From: Mesorhizobium tianshanense
Lineage (GTDB): Bacteria > Pseudomonadota > Alphaproteobacteria > Rhizobiales > Rhizobiaceae
Direction of reading: 5' to 3'
Assembly (NCBI RefSeq): GCF_007830515.1
Contig: NZ_VLKT01000032.1
Location: forward strand, 1 to 64,000
DNA: 64,000 bases
Below the pieces are notes generated by a model. The model saw only the letters and a program-made list of their open reading frames with translations. It made no database searches and had not been told where the DNA came from. The translations under genes were made by a program, and so were the position numbers. This document shows, piece by piece, positions 3,617-52,164 of this stretch; within the stretch, counting starts at the first letter, position 1, and every line of letters starts with the position of its first letter.

Positions 3617-3668
3617 AACGGACCAGCCGCGCAAAGCCAACCTATTGCAATAACAACGGCTTTTTAGC

Positions 3669-3684
3669 TGGCATGGTTCTTGCC
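3669..3684 (+). promoter_or_regulatory. Sigma-54 (-24/-12) promoter of the phosphonate operon
   Basis: TGGCATGGTTCTTGCC fits the consensus TGGCAYG-N4-TTGCW except for the last base, with GG and GC separated by exactly 10 bases. The predicted start is near 3695, leaving a leader of about 158 nt before pepM. With the two NifA-type sites upstream, this predicts expression in nitrogen-fixing nodules or under low oxygen. Confidence 0.82.
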
Positions 3685-36383: not shown

Positions 36384-37763
36384 TTAGTCGCAGCAGTCAC
36401 ATTCATCTTCTTCGGGATTTTGTCTTCTTGAGGCTTTCTCGCTGAGGCCGACAAGGCGTCTGTTGAGACGGCTGGACAATGCTCGGGTGTCGCCGAAGAC
36501 CATCTCCACATCCTCGCGCGAGACGACATCACCGCCATCGCGCGCGAGGCTCCGTTGAGCCAGACGACGGACCATCTCCTTGACATAAGCCGCGCTGCTG
36601 TCCTCCGAGCGCGCGACGGCATCCGCCACTGCTCCGTCCTCGAAGACGAGCGCACGACCATACAGCGCGATCAGCCGCTCGCGGCAACCGGCGTCGGGAA
36701 GCGGGATCTCAATTGCTTCGTCCACGCGGCCGGGGCGCGAGGCGAGCGCGTCCTCAATGTCCTCCGGCCGGTTCGTCGTCAGGATGAAGAGGATATCTGC
36801 ATCTGGTTCAAGACCATCCATCTCGTTCAACAGACGGTTGAGGAGGCGTTCGGCTTTTTGGCCATAAGTATTTTCTCGCGACCGGCCCACCAGGTCAACG
36901 TCCTCAAGCACGACGATGCTCGGCTGCAGGGTGCGGGCCAGCGCGATGTAGAACCCGATCGCAATTGTCTGCTCAGCCGTAACCAGAACGGTAGTGCGTC
37001 CGGGTAGGTTGGCAGAAACATAACGGATGACGTGCGTCTTGCCTGTGCCAGGTGGCCCGTAAAGTAGAACACCCTTTTGCGTCGATTGGCAGAGGCGCTT
37101 TAGCCCCTCTCGGTGTCGATCAAAATCGAAGATGTGAGCATCAAGACGCGCCATAGTTGCCTCGGAAAGCACCACGTCATTCCGGGGTACGGCAGGAAGG
37201 CGATGAACCCGCATCGTTCCCGGCATGCCGGAGTTTCGTGCATCGGGTTCGAAAGAGAGAACCTTGTTGCGGTAGTATCGTGAGCTTTCGCCTGCCGCCT
37301 GGATCTTGCCGAGAAATTTGCGTGAGAAAGCGGATGCCTGCTCGCCATGCAGATAAGCGATTTCCACTTGAACCGTTCGCCCGCCAAAGTAGTCAAAAAA
37401 CTGCGAAAGCAAGATCGCGACAGGCTCTTCGCCGACATGGAATAACCATAGGCCATTGTGCAGAGACGCATAAGGCACATCTTCGCCGATATCGATGTCC
37501 TGATATTGCAAGGGTGTCAGCGCAACGACGGCTTCTCCCTCGCGAATGACCATGTCCGACAGCTTCATGGCGTCGAACTCGTGCCGCTGGTGGACGCCGA
37601 CGAGCTTGGGAGACAGAGGTGCAGTCTGATCTTCAATCACGGTTTGAAGGTCCGGCAGGAGATATGGAGCAAACTTTCTGCGCGAGCTAGCGAGACCCGT
37701 CAAATCATCGTTTTTGAAATGCCGACACAGTGCCTGCCAGGCAAAGGGAACGATATCGGTCAT
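36384..37763 (-). CDS. AAA+ ATPase, CDC48/FtsH-like
   Basis: This 459-aa protein has an N-terminal domain of unknown fold (residues 1-200) and a AAA module. Walker A is LLYGPPGTGKTHV, Walker B SIVVLEDVDLV, sensor 1 FILTTNRPEDIE and the arginine finger region ASRPGRVDEAIEIP. The tail ends DECDCCD. AGGATGTT precedes ATG 37763. It lies about 100 bp downstream of a NifA/sigma-54 module reading in its direction, so it is probably expressed in symbiosis. Its remodelling target is unknown. Confidence 0.8.
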   Translation of the reverse strand: MTDIVPFAWQALCRHFKNDDLTGLASSRRKFAPYLLPDLQTVIEDQTAPLSPKLVGVHQRHEFDAMKLSDMVIREGEAVVALTPLQYQDIDIGEDVPYASLHNGLWLFHVGEEPVAILLSQFFDYFGGRTVQVEIAYLHGEQASAFSRKFLGKIQAAGESSRYYRNKVLSFEPDARNSGMPGTMRVHRLPAVPRNDVVLSEATMARLDAHIFDFDRHREGLKRLCQSTQKGVLLYGPPGTGKTHVIRYVSANLPGRTTVLVTAEQTIAIGFYIALARTLQPSIVVLEDVDLVGRSRENTYGQKAERLLNRLLNEMDGLEPDADILFILTTNRPEDIEDALASRPGRVDEAIEIPLPDAGCRERLIALYGRALVFEDGAVADAVARSEDSSAAYVKEMVRRLAQRSLARDGGDVVSREDVEMVFGDTRALSSRLNRRLVGLSEKASRRQNPEEDECDCCD

Positions 37764-37875
37764 AGCAACATCCTATTGCGAGTTGAGTTGAGCGGAAGAT
37801 CAACGCGATCCTGCATCACACGGCGCCGCTGAGCTCCGCGACGCATTGCTGACGTCCCACTGACAAGATAGTCGG

Positions 37876-37891
37876 AGCAATTTGCGTGCCG
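37876..37891 (-). promoter_or_regulatory. Sigma-54 promoter, module copy A
   Basis: Read leftward the element is CGGCACGCAAATTGCT, matching TGGCACG-N4-TTGCT except at the first base, with exact GG-N10-GC spacing. The predicted start is near 37866, about 100 nt before the AAA+ ATPase gene. Confidence 0.78.
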
Positions 37892-37976
37892 GATTGGCGC
37901 TCCGTTTGTGTTACATCGTTTGCCTGCTAACCGGTGGCCGGCCTTGGCGGCCTTTCGGTCGGGCTTGCGACATTCT

Positions 37977-37992
37977 TGTCCAGTTTCGGACA
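37977..37992 (-). promoter_or_regulatory. NifA-type upstream site, module copy A
   Basis: TGTCCAGTTTCGGACA is an exact TGT-N10-ACA dyad centred about 119 bp upstream of the predicted leftward start. The same site and spacing recur in copies B and C. Confidence 0.75.
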
Positions 37993-38292
37993 TAAGAAGG
38001 TTGCCGATAGACACGCTCGGGGGGACCAAATGAACCTCAAGCATGTAAACGTCGCACCCGAGCCGAATTCTATCCTCATCGAATCCGGACCAGAGCGCTT
38101 GCTGAAGAGCGCGCAATCATGGTCGTTGCGACGGGCGTGCCTTCACGATAGCCGTACCTGCGCACGCAAGAACATGCTAGCGGCAGACGCTATGCAATCG
38201 CTGCTGTGCCCGCCGGTGTGCGGTAGTGCGGCTCGGTCTGTCCGGTTCGGCTCTCCCGAGCCAGCGCTGAATATGCGAACCTACAGCACCTT

Positions 38293-38309
38293 TGTTCAGT
38301 GTGGTGACA
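38293..38309 (+). promoter_or_regulatory. Variant NifA-type site upstream of prxS-rpoN (TGT-N11-ACA)
   Basis: TGTTCAGTGTGGTGACA has an 11-base spacer instead of 10. It centres about 120 bp upstream of the predicted start of the promoter at 38395, the same distance as in the three repeat modules. Confidence 0.5.
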
Positions 38310-38394
38310 AGCGGTTATAGCGCGCGCCCGGACTTGGCGAAGACGGAGTCCTCCCGAAGCTAAAACGGGTCGCTCAAAAGCACTTCATTTGAAA

Positions 38395-38410
38395 TGGCAT
38401 GCCGCTTGCT
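38395..38410 (+). promoter_or_regulatory. Sigma-54 promoter upstream of prxS-rpoN
   Basis: TGGCATGCCGCTTGCT is a perfect match to TGGCAYG-N4-TTGCW with GG-N10-GC. The predicted start is near 38421. The first recognised gene, prxS, begins at 39089, leaving 670 nt that either encode the weak ORF at 38460 or form a long leader. Confidence 0.8.
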
Positions 38411-38459
38411 CCTCGTGGTTTAGAGCCCATCAAAGCACGAAGAAAGCAACTACCGAACC

Positions 38460-39089
38460 ATGGCCGATACGCGAAGCTCCATACGATCGCCCGAGGCGAC
38501 GGTGCCCATTCCCGCTGAAGATCGGGACATCGTCTGCTTCAGAGATCCGTGCTTGATAGCTGCTTTGAGCATGGCTGGTCCGATGCCGACACGCCAACAT
38601 GTGGCACTCGCGCAATTGCCGTTTACCGGCTCTGATCAGCATGTGAGCGCCCAAGAGCCCCATCAAAGGGTCGCCCAAGCCAAGGTCAGCGCGTCACTGG
38701 CAAGTCTCGACGATACGCTGAACCAGTTCAGTGACGCGGGTCTCTTGTGTGAAAACACATTTGCGGCTTCACACGCTTATTTCGATACTGGCTGCTTCCG
38801 GGTGCTATCACTTTTTCCAGGGCACGAGCAGCGGGTGATCGATGCCGCTTCCGGCGCCATAGCCGTAGAAAGATTGCCCAAGCCGCTCGGAGGCTTCCAG
38901 CTCACTCATATCGATGGCGTTCGGGCAACGAAGACCAGGAGCCAGGACGTTCTCATACATCCGGATGGAAAAAGGAGGTTGAGAGCCGCGAGGACCTCAT
39001 CTCATGCCTGGCACGCGGGCCGTAGCTCGCTATTGCGCCAGCCCCAGCTGAAATCCAGTGCGCCAGTTTTTTCTAGAGGAGCAAGTTGA
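38460..39089 (+). CDS. Hypothetical ORF between sigma-54 promoter and prxS
   Basis: This 209-codon open frame starts just after the promoter and ends as TGATG with the prxS start. That arrangement suggests coupling. However, the start lacks a good ribosome site, the composition is unlike a typical folded protein, and I recognise no domain. It may be a decayed gene or a chance frame. Confidence 0.3.
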   Translation: MADTRSSIRSPEATVPIPAEDRDIVCFRDPCLIAALSMAGPMPTRQHVALAQLPFTGSDQHVSAQEPHQRVAQAKVSASLASLDDTLNQFSDAGLLCENTFAASHAYFDTGCFRVLSLFPGHEQRVIDAASGAIAVERLPKPLGGFQLTHIDGVRATKTRSQDVLIHPDGKRRLRAARTSSHAWHAGRSSLLRQPQLKSSAPVFSRGAS

Positions 39090-39622
39090 TGACCGTTCAA
39101 AAGAAGGTTCCCTTCGTTACCTTTCTCACGCGTGTTCGCGACGAGTCAGTCCAGGGGCCAAATCCATATCGCTGGGAAGAAAGAACATCCGACGACTACT
39201 TTGCCGGCAAGCGCGTCATACTGTTCTCGCTGCCTGGCGCCTTCACCCCGACCTGCTCGACCTACCAACTGCCCAATTTCGAAGAGCTCTATGACGAGTT
39301 TGAGAAGCAGGGAATTGACGCGATCTACTGCGTCTCCGTCAACGATGCCTTCGTCATGAATGCGTGGGGGAAGTCCTTGGCTCTGCAGAAGGTCGAGCTC
39401 ATCCCGGATGGGTCAGGCGAGTTCACGCGCAAAATGGGCATGCTGGTCGCCAAGGACAATCTCGGCTTCGGTATGCGCTCCTGGCGCTACGCCGCCCTGA
39501 TCAACAATGGTGTGGTGGAGCGGTGGTTCGAGGAGGAAGGTTTTTCCGACAACTGCGAGACCGACCCCTATGGCGTCTCATCCCCGCAGAACGTTCTTGA
39601 AACGCTGAAGGCCGCCGCTTGA
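39089..39622 (+). CDS. prxS: Peroxiredoxin (Prx5-like, symbiotic PrxS)
   Basis: This 177-aa thiol peroxidase has active-site segment SLPGAFTPTCSTYQLP with the peroxidatic Cys, and DPYGVSSPQNVLETL at the end. It reduces hydrogen and organic peroxides with thioredoxin or glutaredoxin. AGAGGAG precedes ATG 39089. In Rhizobium etli a peroxiredoxin gene of this kind is co-transcribed with rpoN2 under NifA control. The same order here, behind a perfect sigma-54 promoter, supports that arrangement. It should protect bacteroids from oxidants. Confidence 0.9.
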   Translation: MTVQKKVPFVTFLTRVRDESVQGPNPYRWEERTSDDYFAGKRVILFSLPGAFTPTCSTYQLPNFEELYDEFEKQGIDAIYCVSVNDAFVMNAWGKSLALQKVELIPDGSGEFTRKMGMLVAKDNLGFGMRSWRYAALINNGVVERWFEEEGFSDNCETDPYGVSSPQNVLETLKAAA

Positions 39623-39678
39623 CCTAGTTCCCATTACGCACGGCCAAGAGCCTCCTCGACAGGATTATCGAGCTCACC

Positions 39679-41145
39679 ATGCAATCATCAGCAAGCCTGC
39701 TTCAGCGCCAGAAGCAATCTATGGTCGCCTCGCCTCAACTCATTGAGTCGATACGCTTGCTGCAACTGGCGCATGCCGAACTGCATCAGTTCGTGGAGCA
39801 GGAACTCGAGAAGAATCCGCTTTTGGAGCCTGCTTCAAACGATGGCGAGGCTTTTGGCGACGTTTTGCCGAATTCGGGGGAGGATCAGTACATCGGCGCA
39901 CGCGAAAACGACGTTGCCAGGCCGACCATGGCCGGATCCCCCGAACGGCTCGGGGAAAGAAAATCACTTCGTAACACAGCCAACAACCCGCCGGGCAATC
40001 GCCCTGCCTTCGACGAGTTTGTCGCCCTCACCGAAACATTGCACGACCATGTCGCTCGCCAGATCGCCCTCACTGCGCTCACACCACAGGAGCGGCTGAT
40101 TGCTGGCCAGCTTGCCGCTCATCTGGAAGACACTGGCTATCTTCGGGCAAACCTTTTGGAGCTGGCAGAGAGCCTAAACATCCGGGAGGCTGATGTGGAA
40201 CGGGTTCTCGGAACCCTGCAGCACTTTGATCCACCGGGAATCTTCGCGCGGACGCTCAGCGAATGCCTTGAGATCCAGTTGCGCCAGCGAGACCGGTTCG
40301 ACCCGGCGATGGCAACTTTGGTTGCCAATCTTGAAATGCTTGCGCGACGCGATTTTCAGCCATTAAAGCAGCGTTGCGGTGTCGATGAAGAAGACCTTCT
40401 CGACATGTTGCAGGAAATCCGTGCGCTCGATCCCAAGCCTGGAAACCGATTCCAATCCGGAGCGTCGGAATCAATCATACCCGACGTCTGGGTCATGCCC
40501 TCGCCCGGCGGCGGATGGCAAATCGAACTTGATCCGGACACGCTACCCAAGCTGCTGATCAACCAAACCTACTTCGCCGAAGTCTCGCGCCACACGGTCC
40601 AGAATTCGAAAGATCAGGCATTTCTCAACGAATGCTTGCAAAACGCGAACTGGCTAATCCGCAGCCTCGATCAGCGCGCCAAGACGATCCTCAAGGTTGC
40701 GACTGAAATCGTGCGCCAGCAGGAGGCATTTTTGGAACATGGCGTCGCCCACCTGAGGCCTCTCAATCTCAGGACTGTCGCTGACGCGATCAACGTGCAC
40801 GAGTCGACGGTAAGCCGGGTGACGTCGAACAAGTACATGCTTACCCCACGCGGGGTGTTCGAACTGAAGTATTTTTTCACTGTCGCGATCGCCTCCTGCG
40901 AAGGCGGTGACGCGCACTCCGCCGAAGCTGTCCGCCATCGGATCAAGGCGATAGTCGCCGAAGAATCGCTTGATGACGTGCTTTCCGACGATGACATTGC
41001 TGTCCGGCTCAAGGAAACCGGTATCGATGTTGCTCGCCGCACCGTTACAAAATATCGCGAGGCGATGAACATCCCCTCCTCCATACAGCGGCGCCGGGAA
41101 AAGCGCTTATGGCTCAACGGCGATGAAGGCCTGAAGGCCTCGTAA
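39679..41145 (+). CDS. rpoN: RNA polymerase sigma-54 factor (symbiotic RpoN copy)
   Basis: This 488-aa sigma factor has a Gln/Leu-rich region I (SLLQRQKQSMVASPQLIESI), an acidic region II, the core-binding domain and a helix-turn-helix. It ends with the RpoN box ARRTVTKYREAMNIP near residue 460. It directs polymerase to -24/-12 promoters with activators such as NifA. It lies 57 bp after prxS on the same strand, so a NifA/sigma-54 promoter appears to control it, which would give positive feedback. It can serve the several -24/-12 promoters in this window. Confidence 0.95.
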   Translation: MQSSASLLQRQKQSMVASPQLIESIRLLQLAHAELHQFVEQELEKNPLLEPASNDGEAFGDVLPNSGEDQYIGARENDVARPTMAGSPERLGERKSLRNTANNPPGNRPAFDEFVALTETLHDHVARQIALTALTPQERLIAGQLAAHLEDTGYLRANLLELAESLNIREADVERVLGTLQHFDPPGIFARTLSECLEIQLRQRDRFDPAMATLVANLEMLARRDFQPLKQRCGVDEEDLLDMLQEIRALDPKPGNRFQSGASESIIPDVWVMPSPGGGWQIELDPDTLPKLLINQTYFAEVSRHTVQNSKDQAFLNECLQNANWLIRSLDQRAKTILKVATEIVRQQEAFLEHGVAHLRPLNLRTVADAINVHESTVSRVTSNKYMLTPRGVFELKYFFTVAIASCEGGDAHSAEAVRHRIKAIVAEESLDDVLSDDDIAVRLKETGIDVARRTVTKYREAMNIPSSIQRRREKRLWLNGDEGLKAS

Positions 41146-41163
41146 CGCTGACGAAAGCGGCCC

Positions 41164-41817
41164 TTAATCCAACGCGATCCCGTTCTTGGTCTGCGTGAGG
41201 CGACTTTCGCCTTCCTCCGGGCCGAAGCAGCTTTCGAAATCATTGCATGCCCGGCAACTGGGCGCGGTGCACAGCGAAAAACCTTCAGCCTCGCAGAGCT
41301 TGCGGTAAAAGTACTTCTTCCATTTCATGTTTTGGGTGTTGCCGGCCGCCAGCGTCGGAAAATGCGTGGCAAGCAGGCGGCTGAGCTCGGTGCGATTGAA
41401 AAGGCCAAGGTCCTGCCAGAGATGGTCATCGCGCATGGCACGCCGCGCGATGATCTTGGCGAAGCGGGCGCTCGTCGGGTCACCCGGCCGGGCATGCGCC
41501 AGCAGCAGGCCGTGCAGAAGTTCTTCCTCCATCTCTGGCTCGGGGTCGCTCACCTCTTCGAAGGCGAAGGCGTTGACAGCAGCAGCGGGGAAACCGCGGG
41601 GCAAGACGTCGCGCAGCTCGGCGCGCGAAAGGCCGGTCGCCTCTGTCGCCGTCGCCTCGCCGGCCTCGACCTCCTCGAGCGCACGCGAAAGCACGCAGGC
41701 AAGCACATGCTGGTCGAACCTCCTCTCCAGCTCGATGCGCGGCCATCGGCAGGCGCTGAGCCGGCAATTGTGATTGGCGAATATGGTGGCGTTCTCCTGG
41801 TTTGTCTGCCACATCAT
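41164..41817 (-). CDS. nifQ: NifQ, molybdenum donor for FeMo-cofactor synthesis
   Basis: This 217-aa protein carries the C-x4-C-x2-C-x5-C signature at the C-terminus (CTAPSCRACNDFESCF), which binds an iron-sulfur-molybdenum cluster. Other NifQ stretches are HLWQDLGLFNRTELSRLL and HFPTLAAGN. It supplies molybdenum to NifEN during cofactor assembly. It overlaps fdxB by 4 bp and converges on rpoN with a 19-bp gap. Confidence 0.93.
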   Translation of the reverse strand: MMWQTNQENATIFANHNCRLSACRWPRIELERRFDQHVLACVLSRALEEVEAGEATATEATGLSRAELRDVLPRGFPAAAVNAFAFEEVSDPEPEMEEELLHGLLLAHARPGDPTSARFAKIIARRAMRDDHLWQDLGLFNRTELSRLLATHFPTLAAGNTQNMKWKKYFYRKLCEAEGFSLCTAPSCRACNDFESCFGPEEGESRLTQTKNGIALD

Positions 41818-42128
41818 GCAGCGACCTTGTCGGCCTCAACATGCGTCTGGCAGTTCTTCGGGCAGACGCGGGCGCAGGCCCCGCAGCCAATGCAACGGCC
41901 GGCTTGGTCGACGACCATGATCATGCGATTGAGCTCGCCGTCGAAGTCATCGTCCTCGCCGTCGCAGGCGCCGAGGATTTCACCCGCGTCATCGATGCCG
42001 TAAAGATGCATGACCTCGCGCGAGCAGACCTTGAGGCAGCGGCCGCAGCCGATGCGGGTCGTGCCGTCTATAGCGGTGAGACACTCCGGTATCCATCTGG
42101 AGCCGTCGCGGGTGATGAAACCGCTCAT
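41814..42128 (-). CDS. fdxB: Nif-specific ferredoxin III
   Basis: This 104-aa protein has two Cys clusters, CGRCLKVC and CIGCGACARVCPKNC, with the acidic insert between them that marks nif-specific ferredoxin III. It probably donates electrons in nitrogenase cofactor assembly. It usually follows nifENX and precedes nifQ; here nifENX are absent and a monooxygenase gene lies upstream. ATG 42128 is chosen by homology. Confidence 0.9.
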   Translation of the reverse strand: MSGFITRDGSRWIPECLTAIDGTTRIGCGRCLKVCSREVMHLYGIDDAGEILGACDGEDDDFDGELNRMIMVVDQAGRCIGCGACARVCPKNCQTHVEADKVAA

Positions 42129-42424
42129 CGGGAATTCTCCAACGCAGCGAGCTTTCTTGCAGCTGCTGGGCGCACGTCGTGCCGCCGCCATGCTGAAGCC
42201 GCGTCGTCACTGTGCGTGCGGCACGGTGAACGCTGTGTTCCGGCCGGAGGCCGTAGCAACGGCGATGGAAGCCGAGGCAAGGCATTCGTTTGACAGACCT
42301 TCGACATAGGTCCCCTGAACCTGTCGCTGCGAGCGACCTCGGCTCCGTCCCTGCTGTTGACCGCGCGCTTCTGCCTTTCGAAACGACCAGCCAGCCGAGG
42401 TGAGAGTTCAAGCCGTTGCGGATT
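42129..42424. other. Gap upstream of fdxB
   Basis: About 300 bp with no intact gene. A weak leftward sigma-54-like element (CGGCACGACGTGCGCC, complement of 42168-42183) has a good -24 half but a poor -12 half. No TGT-N10-ACA site is seen, so fdxB-nifQ may depend on read-through from the P450 transcript. Confidence 0.35.
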
Positions 42425-43477
42425 TCAAACCCTCGCATGAGCGAGCGACTTGTTGACCGCCGGGATGATCTTGTCTCCCCAGAGCTCGATCTGGCGCAGC
42501 ATCGTCTTTTGGTCGAAATCCCCCAATTGGGTCTGAATTGCGATCTGGTCCGGTTTCAAGATATCCACCTCTTCCAATAGGCGATCAATCACGCGATTCA
42601 CGCCGCCGATCGGCAGGTTCGCGCGCATGGTCTCGAATGACAGATCCTGCTGCGTCGGCGTTTCCTGCAGCAGATAGCCGTCCAGGCTCTGCTGGCGGCG
42701 CTGATGCAGTGCTTCAGACAGCCGGCGCTGGAAGCGGGCATTGTCGAGATAGCTGTTGATCTCTGCCTCGTCGTCGCTGGCATAGCAGCAGCGCAGCAGC
42801 GATATCTTGGCGTCCGTCACATTCTTACCTGCGGAAGCCGCCGCCCTCTTGATGGATTCGCGCAGCGTGCTCAAAGTCTCCAAGCCGTCGTGGAATGCTG
42901 TGACAAAGAAATTGTGTCCCTCACGATAGGCCCGTCGCATGCGCGCCGACCCGCCGGCGATCCAGATCGGCGGTGTCGGCTTCTGGACGGTGCGCACCGA
43001 AATCGCCGTCGGGGGTATGTTCTCATACTGGCCGTCGTGCTCGAAGATGTCTTGGTTGAGGCCTTTCAGAAGGATGTCCAGGTATTCCGAGAAGACGGCC
43101 GGCGCCTCATCGACATTTACACCGAAGCGCTCGAACTCGAATTGCTGGTATCCCAAGCCGACGCCGAGCTCGAGACGGCCGTTCGCAACGATGTCGGCGA
43201 AGCCGATCTCGGAAAGCAGGCGCTGCGGTTGATATAGCGGCAGCACACAGACGGCGGTGCCAAGACGAATGGTGCTCGTCACGCCGGCGCAGTGCGCCAC
43301 CATCATCAAGGGCGAGGGAATCAGGCTGTAATTGTTGAAGTGGTGCTCCGCGAACCACGCGGTATCGAAGCCAGCCTGCTCGGACACAACAGCCTGTTCA
43401 ATGGAGTTGCGGATGACGCTATCGGACGATTGATGATAGCCGCGCTGGGCGGCCAGGATGAAGGTCGCGAATTCCAT
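42425..43477 (-). CDS. LLM-class flavin-dependent monooxygenase
   Basis: This 350-aa bacterial luciferase-like protein starts MEFATFILAAQRGYH and has FDTAWFAEHHFNNY, GTAVCVLPLYQPQRL and GRLELGVGLGYQQFEFERFG, the classic family path. Such enzymes use reduced FMN from a separate reductase to insert oxygen. A flavin reductase remnant lies in the same run at 45400-45750. It is part of the leftward run that starts at the P450 gene. Confidence 0.85.
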   Translation of the reverse strand: MEFATFILAAQRGYHQSSDSVIRNSIEQAVVSEQAGFDTAWFAEHHFNNYSLIPSPLMMVAHCAGVTSTIRLGTAVCVLPLYQPQRLLSEIGFADIVANGRLELGVGLGYQQFEFERFGVNVDEAPAVFSEYLDILLKGLNQDIFEHDGQYENIPPTAISVRTVQKPTPPIWIAGGSARMRRAYREGHNFFVTAFHDGLETLSTLRESIKRAAASAGKNVTDAKISLLRCCYASDDEAEINSYLDNARFQRRLSEALHQRRQQSLDGYLLQETPTQQDLSFETMRANLPIGGVNRVIDRLLEEVDILKPDQIAIQTQLGDFDQKTMLRQIELWGDKIIPAVNKSLAHARV

Positions 43478-43489
43478 GGTGCTTCCTTG

Positions 43490-43800
43490 TTTACAGAGGG
43501 AGTTTGCCGGTCAGGGGGCAGCGCCCGGCATGCGCACAGAAGGCATTGGCCGCAGCGTCGATCCAGCCCTTGGCGGCGGCGTAGTCTTGCGGCAAACCGC
43601 TCGCCATTCGGCGGTTGCAGGCCCGCCCCGAGCGGTTGGAACCGCTTCGACCGCGATGAGGACGTTTTCGTCATGGCCGAAGATGACATGCTCGATTGCA
43701 GGAAGCGTTGCGGGCGCGCGCGCAGCCGAAGCCTGAAGCCCTGGACGTCCTCGGCTTCGATGAGCCGCAGCCCGTCGGCTGGCGATTGGTCGATAATCAA
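43490..43800 (-). pseudogene. Small conserved-looking protein, frameshifted
   Basis: A TTG overlapping the SDR stop opens LIIDQSPADGLRLIEAEDV and QGFRLRLRAR. A second frame continues ATLPAIEHVIFGHDENVLIA, and a third ends LPQDYAAAKGWIDAAANAFC plus AHAGRCPLTGKLPL and a stop. It would be about 104 residues. I do not know the family. Two frameshifts suggest decay. Confidence 0.45.
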
Positions 43801-45377
43801 CCCACGGCCTCCGCAAAACATTCGTCATAGAGTTCACAGGCGTTTCCCGCATCACCGAACGAGGTCCAGCCGCCGTCCACGTAGAGGATCGAGCCGTTGA
43901 TGTATGAGGCGTCAGACGAAGCAAGGAAGAACGCTGCATCTGCGACGTCTTCTGGCCGTCCCGTCGTGCTCGTAGGGATGCGTCGTCCGATTGCTGTCGA
44001 GTCGATGCGGCCGGCTTTCGCCAACTGAGCAAGTGCAGGCGTGCGGATGTAGCCGGGAGCGACGGTGGCTGTTCGAATCCCCACCGGTCCGAGTTCGGCG
44101 GCCATGCATCGGGTCAGAATGTCCATCCCCGCCTTGGAGGCGCCGTAGGCATGGCGCGGCGCGAACGGCAGAAAGCTGTTGATCGATCCGAGGTTGAGGA
44201 TCACGCCGCCAGGGCCCATCGCCTTGATCGCCTCGCGCGCACAGGTGAAGGCTCCGGTGAGATTGACCTCCAGAACGTGTTCGATCTGTTCCGGTGCTTG
44301 TTCGATCCCCGAGGCACCGTTGACAAGGACATCGATGCGCCCGAAACGTCCCCGCAGCTCCTCGAACAGCGCCACCACCTCGCTCTCAACGGCCACGTCC
44401 ACGGATTTGGCCGGGGTCCTGCCGTCGAGCAATCCAGCGAGCTCTGCCGCTGCAGCGCCATCTCTATCAGCAATCACGACGGTATCGCCGTTGGCGGCAA
44501 AGCGGCGAACGACGGCCGCGCCTATGCCGTTCGCGCCGCCCGTGACGAGCACGATTCGCGCGTTGGTGCGTTCGGCCGGACAAGAGAGTTCGGCTCGGGG
44601 CGTCCCATCCACCGGTGGGTGCGCATCCCCCGGCTGGTTGAATGACATCCAGCCGCCGTCGACCGCGAGCACCGATCCTGTGATGTAGCGCGCCTGCGTG
44701 CTGGCCAGAAAACGCACGGGGCGGGCGATCTCGTCGGGCCGCGCCAAGCGCCCCATCGGCACACGGCGGCGCACCGCGGCGAGGTCCACTTTGCCCGCGC
44801 GTTCCAGTTCTGCGACCATCGGCGTGCGCACGTAGCCCGGCGCTACCGCCGTCACGCGGATGCCACGAGACGCCCACTCGCATGCAAGCGACCTCGTCAA
44901 CGAGATCAGGCCTGCCTTCGAGGCTGCGTAGGCATTGCGCCTGGGATTGCCGACCATGCCTGCCATGGAAGCGACGTTGACGATGGCACCGCCTCGCCTC
45001 ATGCGTCTCGCCGCTTCGCGAGCCATGACGAACGGCCCAATTAGGTTTACTGCCAGGCGGCGTCGGAAGGCGTCGACGCCGGTGTCGACAGTCGCAGCCA
45101 TGGTGGGTCCCACCGCTGCGTTGTTGATGAGGACGCCGATCTCAGCGAACTGTGCTTCGACCCGGCCGTAAAGCGCGAGAATATCCTCCTCTCGCGAGAC
45201 ATCGCACTCGAGGCCGAGATGCGGGTAGCCGAGACCACGAGCCAATTCAACGACGCCGCTGCCCGGAAGGTCCACCGCAACAACAGTGTGTCCGTCCCCG
45301 GCAAGAATATCGACCAGGGCTCGGCCGATCCCGCCTGCGGCGCCTGTAATGATGACGATGCGTCCTGCCTGCTTCAT
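43797..45377 (-). CDS. Tandem short-chain dehydrogenase/reductase fusion
   Basis: This 526-aa protein contains two complete SDR domains in one chain. Domain 1 (about 1-250) has TGAAGGIG, NNAA and YAASK. Domain 2 (about 270-515) has TGGANGIG, a variant NGAS and YGASK. Both keep the Tyr-x3-Lys pair, so both could be active NAD(P)H oxidoreductases acting on hydroxyl or keto groups. The linker (PGDAHPPVDGTPRAELSCP) is Pro-rich. It probably oxidises alcohols made by the neighbouring P450 or monooxygenase. Confidence 0.85.
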   Translation of the reverse strand: MKQAGRIVIITGAAGGIGRALVDILAGDGHTVVAVDLPGSGVVELARGLGYPHLGLECDVSREEDILALYGRVEAQFAEIGVLINNAAVGPTMAATVDTGVDAFRRRLAVNLIGPFVMAREAARRMRRGGAIVNVASMAGMVGNPRRNAYAASKAGLISLTRSLACEWASRGIRVTAVAPGYVRTPMVAELERAGKVDLAAVRRRVPMGRLARPDEIARPVRFLASTQARYITGSVLAVDGGWMSFNQPGDAHPPVDGTPRAELSCPAERTNARIVLVTGGANGIGAAVVRRFAANGDTVVIADRDGAAAAELAGLLDGRTPAKSVDVAVESEVVALFEELRGRFGRIDVLVNGASGIEQAPEQIEHVLEVNLTGAFTCAREAIKAMGPGGVILNLGSINSFLPFAPRHAYGASKAGMDILTRCMAAELGPVGIRTATVAPGYIRTPALAQLAKAGRIDSTAIGRRIPTSTTGRPEDVADAAFFLASSDASYINGSILYVDGGWTSFGDAGNACELYDECFAEAVG

Positions 45378-45399
45378 GAGCTTCTCCGCGACGAGCCTC

Positions 45400-45750
45400 A
45401 GCGATCTCAGCCCGTCACCCGTTGGGCGGCGGAATGAGGTAAAGCAGCACGCCCGGGTGACAGACAGTTGCGACCCCAGATAGACGTCGTGCGTTTCGGC
45501 AGCGGTCCAACTCTCGATTTGGCAGTCGAAGCTGGTGAGGGACCCGCCGAGGACAGGCGCTTACCTTGATGAACGGCTCTGCCGGAATCCCGCAAATCGA
45601 TGCACACCGGCGTCGTCAGCAGGCTCGTGGCGACAGAGCTGATCGCTGTCACGGTCAAGCCTTCGCGGGCGGAAAGGCAATCCTACCGGCCGCATCTTCA
45701 CCGGGCAGGCTCTCGCCGGGCGCGCTGTAACATTGCAAAGTTGTCATAGT
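45400..45750 (-). pseudogene. Flavin reductase (HpaC/NtaB-like) remnant
   Basis: One frame gives REGLTVTAISSVATSLLTTP and VCIDL, the FMN-binding start of this family. Another gives FDCQIESWTAAETHDVYLG, the C-terminal part. The central region and the reading frame are lost. It would have been the natural partner of the LLM monooxygenase, whose reduced flavin must now come from elsewhere. Confidence 0.5.
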
Positions 45751-45800
45751 CTCTTGTCCCCTCGGCCGACGCGGATCTCCCTTCGAAATCTCTGAAGGCA

Positions 45801-46340
45801 TCATGGCGAAAAAGGAATGCGACGCTTCCCGAGCGCGTAGACCGGATCGTGCGGATGAGGTGCTCCAATCGGCTGTCGCGGGCCGAACCGTTCTGCCTCA
45901 AGGACCGCTGGTGGGATCTGCTCCTCGAGCCAATCGTAGACCACCGTCCGTTCGGCAATCCGCCATTCCCCTTCCCTCTTCTGAAACAGATCGCAGTAGC
46001 GGCCGCAGAGGAGCGTCTGGCGTACTTCTCCGTCTTTGTCAGGTCCGTGTTGCAGCGCGGTGAAATAGCTCTCGACCGCGGCCGTTGCCGAGCTGATGAA
46101 TTCGATCAGGATGTTCGTGATCTGATGGATGTTGCGAGGCTCGGTCTTGAAGACACCGAGCGCAAACCGGATGAAGCCTTCTGCCGAGCCGCAATAGGGC
46201 CCGTGAGTGTCATGCGCATCGGGCCAGTACACGCTGCGCAACGCCGCCGCATCCGCGCGGTCTATCCCCCGGCAGTATCGATAGAGGCAGTCGCGGATCG
46301 CCTCACGGTCGAGTAATTCGTTAATTTTTGCCTGGTCCAT
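45801..46340 (-). CDS. SnoaL/NTF2-like protein
   Basis: This 179-aa protein starts [20 protein letters not shown] and [10 protein letters not shown], with [12 protein letters not shown] and [12 protein letters not shown], the SnoaL_4/NTF2-like cone fold. Family members act as cyclases, dehydratases or isomerases, or as small dioxygenase subunits. It lies between the ferredoxin and SDR genes of the same run and may shape the P450 product. Confidence 0.75.
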
Positions 46341-46517
46341 CGTCTCTGCCGCAAGTTCGCTGATAGGGAAAAGATGTTTCGCAAAGCCCCGCCCGCCGGT
46401 CGCGCATCATGGGAGCACCTCGACGCCGCAGATGCCTCCTGCGCAGTTCGACGAGGAGGAGGTGGGACAGAGGCCGCCTGCCGTCTTTCAGTATGCGGCC
46501 ACAGGGTCGATCCCCAT

Positions 46518-46763
46518 TCAAGCCCGCCAGACTCTGGGTTCAATGGCGTCCGGTACAACCCGCGCAGCGGGTGTAGGGTCGAGTTCTAGCGCACGTTCGG
46601 GGCAGGATCGCGCACCGCGTGACGCAAGCAGTTGCTCCCCCTCCGCAACCTCAATGTCACCGGGCAGGATGTAGCCCTCGTCATCAAGCTTGAAGACGTC
46701 CGGCGCTTGCGCCGAGCATCGCGCGTGACCCTGGCATTTGGCTTTGTGAACAATAATGCGCAT
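46518..46763 (-). CDS. 3Fe-4S ferredoxin, P450 partner
   Basis: This 81-aa ferredoxin has CQGHARC near the start and a third Cys in RSCPERAL, the pattern of single 3Fe-4S ferredoxins that pass electrons to bacterial P450s. It lies 45 bp after the P450 gene. No ferredoxin reductase is encoded nearby, so a chromosomal one must serve. Confidence 0.85.
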   Translation of the reverse strand: MRIIVHKAKCQGHARCSAQAPDVFKLDDEGYILPGDIEVAEGEQLLASRGARSCPERALELDPTPAARVVPDAIEPRVWRA

Positions 46764-46807
46764 AGCGCTACCTCCAATGTCTGTGCCCCGGCTCGAGACG
46801 GGCTTGG

Positions 46808-48025
46808 TCAGGACCAGTCCAGGATCAGATTTTCGATCCCGAATAGATGGCCGCCGGAGGTAATGGGTGCCGTAGCGTTCTGGATCCGGAAAGCCGGGAT
46901 GCGCGCCAGCCACTCCTCCAGGCCAATGACAATCTCCCGCCGGGCAAGGTGTGAGCCAAGGCAACGATGGGGACCAAAGCCAAAGGCGGCGTGGCGGTTG
47001 TCCTCTCGCGCCAGATCGACCGTGTTGGGGCATTCGAATTCCGCTGGGTCACGATTGGCAATCATCGCGGCGCAGGAAACATAGTCCCCCTTGCGGATCG
47101 GCGCGCCTTCGAAGTCTATATCTTTGGTTGCCACTCGGATTATCTGAACGCTTGGATAGGCGCGCAGCAATTCTTCGGCTGCGAGCACGATCCGGTCCGG
47201 TTCGCGCCGCAGCAAATCTTGATCTTTGATGTTGCGCGCGAGATAAGCCAAGCCAAAGCCTATAGCTGCCGCGACCGTGTCGAGGCCCGCAATGAACACG
47301 AGTACGCCGATACCACGGACTTCCTCCTCGGTCAGCCGGCGGCCCTCGACCTGTGCCTGGACGATGAAAGTCATGAAATCGTCGACCGGTTCCTTGCGGC
47401 GCTTGGTTGCAAGTTCGTCGATGAAGGCCACAATCGTCCGGGCCGCCGCCGGTCGCTTCACATTGTCGCCGTGGAGCAGATCTTTCGCCCAGCCGACAAA
47501 TGTATCGAGTCGGTGATCCGGAAGCCCCAGAAGGCGAAGGAAGATGCTGACCGTGAAAGGAAAGGCAAAATCCTTCATGACGTCGCAGCTTGTGCCCGAT
47601 GCGGCGATCCTAAGGATCAGCGTGATCGCTCGCTCGCGGACCTTCGGCTCCAATACCACCAACCGCTTTGGCGAAAGCAGCGGATTGAGCAGTGAGCGAA
47701 AGACGCCATGGGCCGGTGGATCGAGTTCAAGCGGGATCATCGGCCAGTTTTCGCCCAGCGCGGATGAGAAGATGCTGCGATGGCTGGAAAAGGTTTCGGC
47801 GTCCTGCAGCACACGGCGCTGGTCTGCGGCGCGAGTGATGACCCAGGTACCCCGGCCATCGCGCGTGTTGTAGGGCGAATAAAAGATCGGCGGCCCGGCA
47901 TGGACGCAAGCGACAGCTGCGTGCGGATCTCCGTTGGGCGTCGGCGCCATGCCAGGCGACGTAAACAGACTGAAGTCCCTCACCATTTCGGGCGGGACAT
48001 GATCTGGAACCGCATTAATCGTCAT
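46808..48025 (-). CDS. Cytochrome P450 (CYP101-like)
   Basis: This 405-aa soluble bacterial P450 has haem loop FGFGPHRCLGSHLARRE (Cys about 355), I-helix VFIAGLDTVAAAI and ExxR in EELLRAYP. The N-terminus (VPDHVPPEMVRDFSLF) resembles camphor and linalool hydroxylases, which suggests a terpenoid-type substrate. ATG 48025 follows AGGAGAAACC. It is the first gene of the leftward run below module copy B, so NifA and sigma-54 should switch it on in nodules. It is not the gibberellin P450 set of rhizobia, since the cyclase genes are missing. Confidence 0.88.
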   Translation of the reverse strand: MTINAVPDHVPPEMVRDFSLFTSPGMAPTPNGDPHAAVACVHAGPPIFYSPYNTRDGRGTWVITRAADQRRVLQDAETFSSHRSIFSSALGENWPMIPLELDPPAHGVFRSLLNPLLSPKRLVVLEPKVRERAITLILRIAASGTSCDVMKDFAFPFTVSIFLRLLGLPDHRLDTFVGWAKDLLHGDNVKRPAAARTIVAFIDELATKRRKEPVDDFMTFIVQAQVEGRRLTEEEVRGIGVLVFIAGLDTVAAAIGFGLAYLARNIKDQDLLRREPDRIVLAAEELLRAYPSVQIIRVATKDIDFEGAPIRKGDYVSCAAMIANRDPAEFECPNTVDLAREDNRHAAFGFGPHRCLGSHLARREIVIGLEEWLARIPAFRIQNATAPITSGGHLFGIENLILDWS

Positions 48026-48189
48026 TTGGTTTCTCCTGAACGTCAGGCGTTCTTGCGCTCGATTGGATCGCACGGCTGGTCACAAGGTCGGTTGCCAGCA
48101 CGGGACACGTCCCGGATCAGGCGCCGTACAGATTGGTCAATCCGCTGAGCTCCATCACGCACTGCTCGCCACCCTGACAAAACTGTCGG

Positions 48190-48205
48190 AGCAAGTTGCG
48201 TGCCG
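48190..48205 (-). promoter_or_regulatory. Sigma-54 promoter, module copy B (P450 run)
   Basis: Read leftward, CGGCACGCAACTTGCT matches the -24/-12 consensus except at the first base. The predicted start is near 48179, giving a 150-nt leader before the P450 gene. Confidence 0.8.
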
Positions 48206-48289
48206 GTTAGCGCACCGTTTGCGTTGCACCACTTGCCCGGTAACGGTGGCCGAGCCTTGGCGGCCTTTTGGTCGGGCTTGCGACATTCT

Positions 48290-48305
48290 TGTTCAGCTTC
48301 GGACA
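48290..48305 (-). promoter_or_regulatory. NifA-type upstream site, module copy B
   Basis: TGTTCAGCTTCGGACA is an exact TGT-N10-ACA site centred about 118 bp upstream of the predicted start. Confidence 0.78.
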
Positions 48306-48524
48306 TTTCTCGGTTCTGGTGACCGAGCGTTCCCGCCGAACGTCAGGACATTGTCCCGTCCTCGACGACAGCGTCTCCGACCCAAGGAAACGGCATCGAT
48401 ATTGCACGCCGCACTGTCACAACATGTCGCTGAGCGCCGCCGGGAAAGGCGGCGCTTCTGGCTTTAATGCGGGTCGACCCATCCACCCCCATGTTGCAGC
48501 GCATTCAAACTGAAGAGCTTATTC

Positions 48525-49742
48525 ATGGCCGAATCGGCGACAGGCTTCACGGACGCTGCTCTGCACGACCCAGAAAAGCCCGATCAAGGGTCTTGTCCCG
48601 CATGGGGTGCGGTCATTTCGCTTGCATTGGGCACCTTCGGACTGGTGACGGCAGAGTTTCTGCCTGCCAGCGTGCTGACGCCACTCGCGCATGATCTCGG
48701 TATCACCAAGGGTGCGGCTGGCCAGGCGCTGACAGCGACCGCAATCGCCGGGGCGATCTCGGCGCCGACGATGGCCATCATTACAAGGCGCCTGGACCGC
48801 AAGATCGTCATATGGGCGATGACGCTGCTGCAGATCCTGTCCAACGTTCTGGCGGAGGTCGCCTGGTCACTGCCAGTTTTCCTGACGGCACGTGTCGTGC
48901 TCGGCATAGCGCTCGGAGGCTTCTGGTCGATTTCGGCAGCGCTGGCGATGCGGCTCGTTCCAAGTCACCTCCTGCCGCGCGCCATGTCGATCATCATCAC
49001 CGGCGTTTCCGTCGCTATCGTTTGCGCGCCTCCTGTCGGCGCTTATGTCGGAGAGATCTGGGGATGGCGAGCCGCCTTCATGATCGCCGTATTCGTTAAT
49101 GCCATTACATTGCTGGTCCAACTCATAACCATTCCGACGCTGCCTCCGATTGAAGTGGCTACATTCCGCAGTCTGCTGGATGCGGCCAAGAATCCAACGA
49201 CCAGGATCGCGTATTTGGTCGTCCTGCTGGTCGCTTCTGGGCACTTCGCCAGCTTCACCTACATCCGTGCCTTTCTCGAGAAGGTTCCCGCGCTCGATAT
49301 CGAGACGATCTCGCTGGTCTTGCTCGCTTCTGGCATCGGCGGTTTCTTCGGTAATTTGGCCGGCGCATTCCTGGGCAAGCACAGCCTCAAGGCAGTCGCG
49401 GCTCTGCCGCCCCTGCTCATAGCGATAGCCGCTGTCTCGCTGCTGACGGTGGGAGCATCGGCCTCGGCCTCGGCTATTGCGGTTGCCGTATGGGGCTTTG
49501 CCTTCGGCGCGGTGCCGGTGGGGTTACAGACGTGGATGGTGCTGCGCGCCGCTCCCGAGCAGGCCGAAAGCGCCGGTGCGCTAATGACCGTAACGTTCCA
49601 GTTGGCCATCGCAGCCGGCGCGATTTTCGGCGGACTACTGGTGGATAATGCCGGCGTTGCTAGCGTCTTTGCCTACAGCGCGGCTGCCACGTTCCTCGCC
49701 GTCCTGACAGTGTTCGTGCTCGGCCCGAAGCGCGAAACCTAG
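48525..49742 (+). CDS. MFS transporter, DHA1 family (NepI/YdhP-like)
   Basis: This 405-aa membrane protein has 12 predicted helices and the DHA1 landmarks FGLVTAEFLPASVLTPLAHD and ARVVLGIALGGFWSISAALA. Relatives export purine nucleosides or sugars and drugs. It starts at ATG 48525 and diverges from the P450 run. A thymidine phosphorylase fragment lies 1.6 kb away, but I see no functional link to the intact genes. Confidence 0.8.
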   Translation: MAESATGFTDAALHDPEKPDQGSCPAWGAVISLALGTFGLVTAEFLPASVLTPLAHDLGITKGAAGQALTATAIAGAISAPTMAIITRRLDRKIVIWAMTLLQILSNVLAEVAWSLPVFLTARVVLGIALGGFWSISAALAMRLVPSHLLPRAMSIIITGVSVAIVCAPPVGAYVGEIWGWRAAFMIAVFVNAITLLVQLITIPTLPPIEVATFRSLLDAAKNPTTRIAYLVVLLVASGHFASFTYIRAFLEKVPALDIETISLVLLASGIGGFFGNLAGAFLGKHSLKAVAALPPLLIAIAAVSLLTVGASASASAIAVAVWGFAFGAVPVGLQTWMVLRAAPEQAESAGALMTVTFQLAIAAGAIFGGLLVDNAGVASVFAYSAAATFLAVLTVFVLGPKRET

Positions 49743-49941
49743 ACCGCCTGACAGACGAAGCCCTCAGCGCTGTGCGGCGAGAGATGCAATCGCATCAGCC
49801 GCGCGGCGCGATCCTGCGCACGTTTACTTTGGCGGTTGCAGGCTTCGTCTCGCCAATCGCATAGCCGCCTGGATCGCGGCTACTGTCTCTTCCGCGGCTT
49901 TCCGATCGGGCATGACCCAGCACCGGCGCCTCGCCGGCCTT

Positions 49942-50225
49942 TTAGATCGAGACCGGCATCGTATGGAACCCGTCGAAGGAACTGCGGTATTCAACCAGCT
50001 TGCCGCGCCACTCCTCGAACACGTTCGAGATCGTACGTTCCGGCTGCTCTACGTAACTATGCGTCTTGGCGTAGGCGATACACTTGTCATGCAGGCAGGC
50101 GTTCAGCTTCTCGTGGGTGTTGAAGCGCAGCCACGGCGTGAAGAAGCGCACCAGCCCGACCTTGTTCTCGACCTGACCCTTCTCCCAGCCCGAGGCTGCG
50201 TACAGACGAACGGCTGTACCGGGCT
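49942..50225 (-). pseudogene. IS21-family transposase IstA, fragment
   Basis: The reading ASGWEKGQVENKVGLVRFFT, then KTHSYVEQPERTISNVFEEW and RSSFDGFHTMPVS is the central-to-late part of IS21-type IstA. No start, C-terminal domain or istB is present. Confidence 0.7.
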
Positions 50226-50237
50226 GATTGATCGCTC

Positions 50238-51106
50238 TTACTCACCGTTGAACGCGCGATAGGCGCGGATCACCTGGCTGTCGTCGACTTGGCCGTCGCC
50301 GCGGCCGGAAACGGAAAGGAAGAGCTGGTGGGCTAGAGCGGCGAACGGCAGCGCCGCCTTGGTTTCTCGGCCCGCCTCGAGCACGATGCCGAGATCCTTG
50401 ACGAAAATATCGACTGTGGTGAAGGCCTCCGGGTTGTCCATGATCATGCGCGGCCCGCGATCTTTCAGCATCCAACTCGAGGCTGATGTGCCCGATAGAA
50501 TGTCGAGCATGCCCGCAGCGTCGACACCCGCCTTCTCAGCGAGCGAAAAGGCCTCGGCCGCTACAGCGGATGTGAACGCCGCAGAGGAGCTGGTTGACGA
50601 CTGCCCCCTGCCCGGGGCGCTCGCCTATGTGGAAGACCTTGTCACCCCATCCCCTTGAAGATCGGCTGGGCTGGCTCGAAGATGCTCTGCGGCGCAGCCG
50701 CCATGATCGTCAGCGTCCCGGCTATTGCCCCAGCAGTGCCGCCCGAGACCGGCGCGTCGATGAATCCTCGCCCGGTCGCGGTAACGCGCGCGGCGATAGA
50801 TTCGACCGATTTCGGCGGACAGGTCGCCATCAGACAGACGGTCGCGTCAGAAGGCGCTGCCGCAAGCGCTCCATCGGTGAAGAGCACCGTTTGCGCCTGC
50901 GTCGCATCGACCACCATAAGCAAGACAAAATTCGCACCCGCGCAGGCTCCGGCAGCCGACGCGGCCGGCGTGCCTCCCGCCGCTTGTAGATCCGCGAGGC
51001 TCTTTGCGGCGATATCGAAGCCCTGAACTTCAAAGCTGCGCTTGAGAAGATTTCGGGCCATGGGCCCGCCCATCGAACCGAGTCCGATGAAGGCGATCTT
51101 TGTCAT
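50238..51106 (-). pseudogene. 3-hydroxyacid dehydrogenase (LtnD/HIBADH-like), frameshifted
   Basis: The N-terminal Rossmann domain MTKIAFIGLGSMGGPMARNL and FIDAPVSGGTAGA are intact. One extra base after FKGMG moves the frame to DKVFHIGERPGQGAVVNQLL, and another extra C moves it to MLDILSGTSASSWMLKDRG and the C-terminus at 50238. The catalytic Lys region survives but the chain cannot be made in one piece. It is the first substantial gene downstream of module copy C. L-threonate or a similar hydroxyacid would have been the substrate. Confidence 0.75.
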
Positions 51107-51319
51107 GCTGCCATCCTCCTTGGCGGCTAGTCGCAGCGAAGCCACCTTCTAAGATTGTCGTTTGGACAGGGCGCGTCGGACAAGTGCCCTGAGCCGTTGC
51201 GTCTTGGCTTCGAAGCCAGCAAATACTCGGAAGACCTCTATGATCACGCGCAAGGGAATGCAGGGATGCTCACCATAGGCGGCTTCGCGGCGCTGGCCGT
51301 CAGCGGCGCCGACAGGCGA

Positions 51320-51418
51320 GCATCCGGGTGATGCCGACCAATGGTCGAAGCTGTCTTCCGGCCGTGCGCCGCCGCCGAGCGTAACGACGGCGAGGCCGAT
51401 CTCGCGCGTCGAAATCAT
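51320..51418 (-). pseudogene. Thymidine phosphorylase (DeoA) C-terminal fragment
   Basis: About 32 codons read MISTREIGLAVVTLGGGARP and EDSFDHWSASPG, the conserved region near the end of DeoA-type pyrimidine phosphorylases. The rest is missing. It lies right at the predicted start of module copy C. Confidence 0.5.
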
Positions 51419-51421
51419 CGA

Positions 51422-51437
51422 AGCAAGTTGCGTGCCG
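51422..51437 (-). promoter_or_regulatory. Sigma-54 promoter, module copy C
   Basis: Read leftward it is CGGCACGCAACTTGCT, identical to copy B. The predicted start is near 51412 and downstream genes are decayed. Confidence 0.75.
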
Positions 51438-51523
51438 ACTCGGCGCTCCGTCTGCGTTACACAGCTTGCTCGATAAGCGGTGGCCCGGCCCTAGCGACCT
51501 TTTGGCCGGGCTTGCGACATTCT

Positions 51524-51539
51524 TGTTCAGCTTCGGACA
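51524..51539 (-). promoter_or_regulatory. NifA-type upstream site, module copy C
   Basis: TGTTCAGCTTCGGACA is identical to the site in copy B and sits about 120 bp upstream of the predicted start. Confidence 0.75.
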
Positions 51540-51812
51540 CAAGTAGGTTTGCGGTAGAAACCCCCACGGAGGCGGCAGGCGAGATCGCGTTCTTGGCGCG
51601 GAACCAATAGCCTTCGCGCTTGGTGCCGCCGCAATTGTCGAAATGGAAAGGGTGCTGTGCGCGATCAAGGTGGGGTCTGGACCGCCCCTTGACCGACTGG
51701 AAGACTGTGGCCGCAACGGCTGCTCGAAACCGATGCCTCGCTCGCCGCCGTTAATAAGCACCTATTCAGCATTCCCAGGACAACGTCTGACAACCGACAT
51801 TTACGGTCGCTT

Positions 51813-51926
51813 TGTCGGGTCCGCGACGCAGGACTATTCGACCTCCCGCACCTAGTTAAGTCATTGAATAATACAGGGAACGCTCTTTTTGAGCTTCTTA
51901 GTGCGATGTCGGCATGATTTTTGAGG
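51813..51926 (+). promoter_or_regulatory. Weak NifA/sigma-54-like arrangement upstream of the decarboxylase operon
   Basis: TGTCGGGTCCGCGACG (51813-51828) is one base from TGT-N10-ACA. TCGGCATGATTTTTGAGG (51909-51926) has a good -24 half, but GA replaces the nearly invariant GC of the -12 half. The spacing (about -116) matches the real modules. I regard it as a degenerate or chance site. Confidence 0.3.
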
Positions 51927-52164
51927 CTTCCTCGTCGCGAGGCGTCAGGAGTTGCCGAACCGATATTCTCGTCGTGGTGACAATTCCGTCGTTCCCGGAG
52001 CACCGATGCCCCAACGGCCGTGGACAGCTATCTCGCCGAAGTCGCCACCCGGCCTACCGGATCAGTGACGCCGAGCCGGAGGCGGGGTGGCGGCGGGCTG
52101 ATAGGAGCGGGTCTTGAGTCACCCTGCCTGCCGTTTCCCTGGGCGGCTATAGCGGAGCATATGC

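Follow-up and report, generated by a model that had tools for sequence, protein, structure and literature searches.

How does one nitrogen-fixation promoter come to stand before genes that have nothing in common? This question is raised by the window analyzed here, namely, bases 1 to 64,000 of contig C32 (NZ_VLKT01000032.1) in the 7.86-Mb draft genome of Mesorhizobium tianshanense (G000), in which a module combining a sigma-54-type -24/-12 promoter with an upstream activator sequence (UAS) of the form TGT-N10-ACA occurs three times (copies A, B, and C; coordinates in Table 1). An earlier note on this DNA had read the three as near-identical units captured by duplication. Our analysis indicates that A, B, and C probably descend from a single NifA/sigma-54 promoter region, whose copies dispersed from a home beside prxS and a cytochrome P450 (P450) operon. 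Sequence comparison establishes a common origin and a dispersal of copies, and the module's composition leads us to infer that A, B, and C are controlled by NifA.

The three copies all lie on the minus strand and, with A as the query, B and C were recovered with E values of 4e-34 and 4e-31, in agreement with the single orientation and homology claimed earlier. "Near-identical" was too strong, since identity from the UAS to the -12 element is only 82 to 86% (A-B, 86% over 118 columns; A-C, 82%; B-C, 85%). Both reported promoter elements were confirmed in every copy: CGGCACGCAAnTTGC forms the -24/-12 promoter at all three sites (three occurrences in the window, against 0.01 expected from shuffles), with a C at position -26, and a strict TGT-N10-ACA lies 84 to 86 bp 5' of the -24 element. 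A second, degenerate UAS-like dyad, absent from the earlier note, begins 20 bp after the start of the first TGT-N10-ACA; it reads TGTCGCAAGCCCGACC in A and B and TGTCGCAAGCCCGGCC, without the final A, in C. The spacer from the dyads to the -24/-12 promoter is about 85 bp in all three copies. Like A, B, and C, 100 of 107 distinct full-length copies retain the GG of the -24 element and, at the standard distance, the GC of the -12 element; the UAS and the -24/-12 promoter are the best-conserved parts of the module, and in some copies before pepM it is the second dyad that is the strict one. Rfam gave no match at the modules at the gathering threshold.

What lies behind the promoters is unrelated, as the earlier note had stated: the AAA, P450, and NAD_binding_2 proteins encoded downstream of A, B, and C belong to different families, and no homologous coding sequence follows the three copies. 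Duplication of a gene was therefore rejected as the source of the repeats. A and B have a common leader of about 50 bp, whereas C ceases to resemble either of them at +5, which also upholds the earlier description. Leaders are shared between copies that precede unrelated genes, and the 3' ends of homology range from about 0 to about +270. The leader was rejected as a conserved small gene because stops and frame changes occur among homologous leaders; a plasmid search with one leader peptide returned its own record only. An origin of the leader from a nifQ fragment was set aside, on a by-eye judgement only. Behind C, the promoter is followed by a fragment with 58% identity over 36 amino acids to a 439-amino-acid open reading frame on contig C31 (E = 5e-5; PYNP_C domain), and the dehydrogenase gene linked to C is broken here and in genome G048 but open in G141 and G046.

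The module is not confined to the window. Searching the whole genome with A recovered copy D on contig C86 (8e-18), copy E on C46 (4e-12), and copy F on C64 (9e-11), after which the next match had an E value of only 0.04. The gene downstream of D encodes a class I aminotransferase, and that downstream of E is LysR-like and degenerate; F is followed by an outer-membrane protein gene, whose Pfam assignment comes from its relative in G048 only. A sequence-only model built on five copies gave six matches in this genome, six each in G046 and G048, and five each in G141 and G026. In the window and 100 stretches taken around the matches listed, it gave 126 hits. Across the genus, at least ten kinds of gene start within about 400 bp of a copy, namely, those for AAA ATPase, P450, dehydrogenase, class I aminotransferase, LysR regulator, Omptin-like protein, phosphoenolpyruvate (PEP) mutase, ABC transporter, RpiR regulator, and asparagine synthase. 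RpiR is counted on one clear copy (G134, by Pfam) and GntR was left out; on the tree described below the "GntR" label needs three changes and RpiR two, each equal to the shuffled value, and a "Crp?" label is uncertain because the annotated gene is oppositely oriented. Identification of the ABC transporter class with exsA was rejected, the protein being 39% identical to the ABC transporter adjoining nifQ in Mesorhizobium 131-3-5.

We then asked how old the copies are. In unrooted trees of 107 and 115 copies, from which partial and identical copies were left out, copies group by downstream gene rather than by genome. The gene label requires 22 changes on the tree, compared with a minimum possible of 17 and a shuffled mean of 63 (14 of the 115 rows being unlabelled); the genome label requires 60 among multicopy genomes, an unshuffled count. 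B has the same sequence as the P450 copy of G003, A clusters with the AAA copies of G003 and G048, and C clusters with the dehydrogenase copies of G048, G141, and G046. P450 and PEP mutase copies each occur in more than one tree group, indicating that promoters were also exchanged or regained. Copies inside this genome differ by 11 to 28%, whereas B differs from its counterparts in other genomes by 0 to 10% at a synonymous divergence (dS) of P450 of 0.03 to 0.30 and from the M. amorphae copy by 20% at a dS of 0.26; A differs by 4 to 5% at a dS of about 0.19 and by 16% at 0.25. One comparison, of 10 codons, gave no dS estimate, and the dehydrogenase was left out of this set. By these values, the copies predate the split from the nearest species. 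Of the proposed promoter capture by duplication, the repetition of a promoter region thus stands, but a recent duplication within this genome was rejected because copies cluster by gene across species, each having been inherited with its gene.

Judged by genomic position, the module's home is likely to be the intergenic space on the divergent side of prxS-rpoN2, next to the P450 operon; in several genera it faces such an operon there. Among same-contig pairs in the matches listed, a copy lies within 15 kb of prxS in 79 of 80 genomes and is divergent from prxS at 0.4 to 1.2 kb in 35 of 80. Copies at this divergent position also occur on Rhizobium and Sinorhizobium plasmids, namely, those of R. 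gallicum, R. acidisoli, R. tropici, Rhizobium strains CB3090, CB3060, and C104, and S. mexicanum, with differing downstream genes, and a partial copy occupies it in R. etli CFN42. In the window, this site carries the AAA ATPase gene; R. tropici has pepM there, R. gallicum GDPD, and S. mexicanum a methyltransferase gene followed by asnB. In G291, G308, and G368, which belong to two other genera, the module lies between prxS and P450. The module UAS of S. fredii GR64 is a prxS UAS when read on the opposite strand, and the same holds for the UAS of a module remnant in Mesorhizobium 131-3-5. Since A occupies the apparently ancestral site, the AAA ATPase gene may have come to the promoter. In stretch L064 (9449-11192; G140), the prxS-site copy is split, with positions 1 to 77 and 68 to 141 about 1.6 kb apart and, between them, a reading frame that by eye resembles a reverse transcriptase.

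In the mechanism that we propose, the strict TGT-N10-ACA would form a NifA array together with the degenerate dyad, their distance of 20 bp being equal to about two helical turns. In the nodule, NifA would occupy these tandem sites and loop to the RpoN2 polymerase at -24/-12 to open the promoter, a step drawn from the module anatomy and from established sigma-54 biology. Dispersal would have combined block rearrangement with the copying of pieces of very roughly 130 to 400 bp, copies having come to rest upstream of many unrelated genes, with which they were subsequently passed on. A would represent the home site with a changed neighbor, B the copy before the P450 operon, and C a copy fused to a gene fragment before the dehydrogenase gene.

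The distribution of the module follows that of nif genes. The module is present in 100 of 146 genomes of the genus, as is nifH (E < 1e-90), with both in 99 and neither in 45 (Fisher p = 2e-35), so that 99 of the 100 module-positive genomes have nifH and 99 of the 100 nifH-positive genomes have the module. The earlier note had held that frequent occurrence on nonsymbiotic replicons without a NifA response would speak against its reading. Such occurrence was seen only in part: in 14 genomes of 2 to 5 contigs, counted by hand among the matches listed, 29 of 32 copies share a contig with nifH and 3 lie on another. At the family level, matches were obtained in 13 of 394 genomes, of which 11 belong to other genera; 8 of these 11 have a full nifH, G174 and G337 have short nifH pieces only, and the marginal match in G315 (E = 8e-4) was disbelieved. 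Eighteen plasmid records match the module (Rhizobium, 8; Mesorhizobium, 7; Sinorhizobium, 3).

Could the repeats have arisen otherwise? Tandem duplication of a block comprising the P450 operon, the module, prxS, rpoN2, and nifQ, followed by loss of one copy of each gene, would leave a module at each end; the promoter itself would never have moved alone, and new genes would have arrived beside the freed promoter. A and B do stand at the two ends of a prxS-rpoN2-nifQ-P450 block, P450 is divergent from prxS in Mesorhizobium 131-3-5, G291, G308, and G368, and the prxS-divergent site holds different genes in different species. However, this scheme leaves unexplained D, E, and F, which lie on other contigs before other genes and have only the module and a leader in common with the block, as well as the five or six matches per genome in G046, G048, G141, and G026, and block rearrangement on its own is therefore unlikely. 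Carriage inside a small promoter-bearing transposable element, similar to a miniature inverted-repeat transposable element, would account for many copies in different places, but the variable 3' ends of homology speak against an element with fixed ends, and a search for inverted repeats of at least 30 bp, covering that length only, found none in 35000-54000; we consider such an element highly improbable. Least credible is convergence, in which ordinary NifA promoters would resemble one another through selection on the same sites. The strongest conservation does fall on the UAS and the -24/-12 promoter, as convergence would have it, but the 85-bp spacer is also alignable (A-B identity being 86% over the 118 columns), other NifA-type promoters, such as that of nifH, are absent from the model's six matches in this genome, and leaders are common to copies with unrelated genes.

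Dispersal of a NifA-controlled promoter from a prxS/P450 home thus accounts best for the data, although several observations weigh against it. A simple scan found a strict UAS in only 72 of the 107 distinct copies, and the trees have few alignment columns and no root. G007 has the module without nifH and G044 has nifH without the module, and the copies off the nifH contig are those of G017, G019, and G029. G007 has two module copies and prxS, with both copies near contig ends; it may have lost its nif genes or have an assembly gap, which are alike possible. In the window, the 250 bp upstream of the candidate promoter on the prxS-rpoN2 side contain no strict UAS. Finally, the extent of upstream homology to A does not cleanly separate home from dispersed copies. 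B, C, D, E, and F end at -116 to -137; of the home-site copies, R. gallicum extends to -233 and G046 to -634 but S. mexicanum only to -134, while away from prxS homology extends to -237 in an ABC-gene copy and to -189 in the P450 copy of M. amorphae. With extents so mixed, the argument for the home site is a positional one.

The remaining features of the window are given in Table 1. Contig C32 has two nifA genes above the family cutoff, and rpoN2 lies inside the window.

Table 1. Module copies and associated features of the 64,000-base window
Feature	Position	Strand	Remarks
Copy A	37873-38013	-	UAS 37992-37977; second dyad from 37972; -24/-12 37891-37877
Copy B	48187-48312	-	UAS 48305-48290; second dyad from 48285; -24/-12 48205-48191
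Copy C	51419-51560	-	UAS 51539-51524; second dyad from 51519; -24/-12 51437-51423
Leader of A	37826-37876	-	Common with B to about +51 (A-B alignment ends at +51/+49)
AAA ATPase gene behind A	36384-37763	-	Intact, 459 amino acids; PF00004, 80 bits
prxS (peroxiredoxin)	39086-39622	+	Matches peroxiredoxin-annotated genes; divergent from A
rpoN2	39679-41145	+	Sigma54 domains; divergent from A
Candidate promoter, prxS-rpoN2 side	38395-38409	+	TGGCATGCCGCTTGC; resembles R7A prxS promoter ATGGCACGGCGCTTGCG
P450 operon behind B	42425-48073	-	Pfam for P450, short-chain dehydrogenase/reductase (SDR), and monooxygenase; order as annotated in M. amorphae
P450 gene of operon	46808-48073		
Ferredoxin gene of operon			
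NTF2-like gene of operon			
Double SDR gene of operon	43797-45377		
Luciferase-like monooxygenase gene of operon	42425-43477		
Pyrimidine-nucleoside-phosphorylase-like fragment	51308-51418	-	Fused directly 3' of C promoter
3-Hydroxyisobutyrate-dehydrogenase-like gene behind C	50642-51145	-	NAD_binding_2
nifH-promoter match	51791-51924	+	42-bp match (84%), then CGGCATGATTTTTGA at 51910
Pyridoxal decarboxylase-like gene	from 52165		
NifA-type promoter before PEP mutase gene	3581-3683	+	TGGCATGGTTCTTGC at 3669; two strict UAS 20 bp apart
PEP mutase gene	3853-4836		
Group II intron match	266-336	+	Rfam RF00029, 67.9 bits

The module also bears on a puzzle in strain R7A. In the R7A report (PMC3538637), pepM (msi327), aatA (msi326), and asnB (msi323) fall from 827, 2456, and 862 units to 8, 16, and 22 units without nifA2 (Table 4 of that report), yet they are listed without NifA promoters and direct activation is judged highly unlikely. 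According to the same report, fusions to prxS and msi332 (P450) yield 204 and 447 Miller units, but only 18 and 15 when nifA2 is mutated, and nifQ is NifA2 dependent yet reported without a NifA promoter. The msi332 promoter of R7A is of another type, so that its NifA2 dependence bears on the gene and not on the module.

A full module precedes pepM in G019 (CGGCACGCGCCTTGC, its strict UAS lying 65 bp further upstream), a genome that we take to be that of M. japonicum MAFF303099. On the same strand after pepM come genes for a class I aminotransferase, a nucleotidyl transferase, a methyltransferase, and an asparagine synthase. Scanning 30 kb of G019 with a relaxed pattern gave five combinations of a UAS with a -24/-12 promoter, against 0.01 expected in simulated sequence. 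Three of the five (nifS, fixA, and the msi332 P450) agree with Table 1 of the R7A report (PMC3538637); the others lie before pepM and the nifQ cluster. The candidate promoter before the nifQ cluster, CGGCACGGCGCTTGA, has a strict UAS 91 bp upstream and is found at L202:8474 on the plus strand (G019:C1:4740473) and at L165:8669 on the minus strand. An overlooked direct module promoter would explain the NifA2 dependence of pepM, aatA, and asnB, and presumably it was missed because position -26 is C instead of T. In the present window, the PEP mutase gene is preceded by a NifA-type promoter (Table 1) that the module profile does not match, so that here pepM may be under NifA control through a different promoter.

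A broader proposal, to which we give an even chance, is that much of the accessory NifA regulon of Mesorhizobium arose through the copying of two promoters, one of the nifH type and an overlooked one of the prxS/P450 type, that pepM, aatA, and asnB are direct targets, and that the prxS-rpoN2 intergenic space acts as a two-way enhancer seeding regulon growth in several rhizobial genera. The module would thereby offer a testable answer to the R7A puzzle, and it suggests that a class of NifA promoters escapes scans with the strict TGGCAC consensus. It also provides a natural, well-sampled case of regulon growth by promoter copying, in which a single region serves ten kinds of target gene within one genus, has relatives beyond that genus, and can be assigned a plausible source site.

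Duplicated NifA promoters before different operons have precedents in P1, P2, and P3 of Sinorhizobium meliloti and in Rhizobium trifolii. No paper on the present module was found in the open-licence PubMed Central (PMC) literature. The NifA targets that a regulon survey predicts for some Rhizobiales include P450 and alkyl hydroperoxide reductase genes (PMC4999443). The prxS-rpoN2 promoter region, described in R. etli and M. loti, resembles our module in that the module UAS doubles as that of prxS in S. fredii GR64 and in the 131-3-5 remnant; it differs in that the prxS promoter is oppositely oriented and, here, lacks a strict UAS in the 250 bp before its -24 element. The R7A report further describes how nifA2 came under FixV by translocation, a regulator-promoter unit having moved to a new gene and left fragments of the former downstream gene between (PMC3538637). 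As described there, this was a single event under LacI/GalR-type control and concerned no NifA promoter.

A close parallel is the nifH promoter of R7A: according to PMC3538637, nifHDKENX, msi071 (diterpenoid synthesis), and msi321 (with a nifH fragment) have a common promoter, TTGGCACGAGTTTTGAA, so that there, too, one NifA/sigma-54 promoter stands before unrelated genes. The M. tianshanense genome matches the nifH promoter at four places besides nifH itself, three of them (70 to 81%) at C72:14115-14365, C7:171012-171248, and C32:66326-66576. The C72 match is followed by a nifH fragment and the C7 match by a P450-like gene. The fourth, the short match at 51791-51924 before the pyridoxal decarboxylase-like gene, is possibly a decayed nifH-type copy close to module C. 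Elsewhere, partial copies retain the UAS half of our module, and the next -24/-12 promoter is of the nifH type, TTGGCACGAGTTTTGAA or TTGGCACGACTTTTGAA (L123 and L126 [G052 and G055], L165, and L200:2071-2142), from which it appears that core promoters may have been replaced. Compared with the R7A nifH copies, the present module differs in having C at -26, GC at -12, a tandem UAS, a leader without a conserved reading frame, and no nifH fragment behind A, B, or C; the apparent source of its copies is the prxS/P450 region and not the promoter of a nif gene. Dispersed NifA promoters are thus already known, and the present module adds another.

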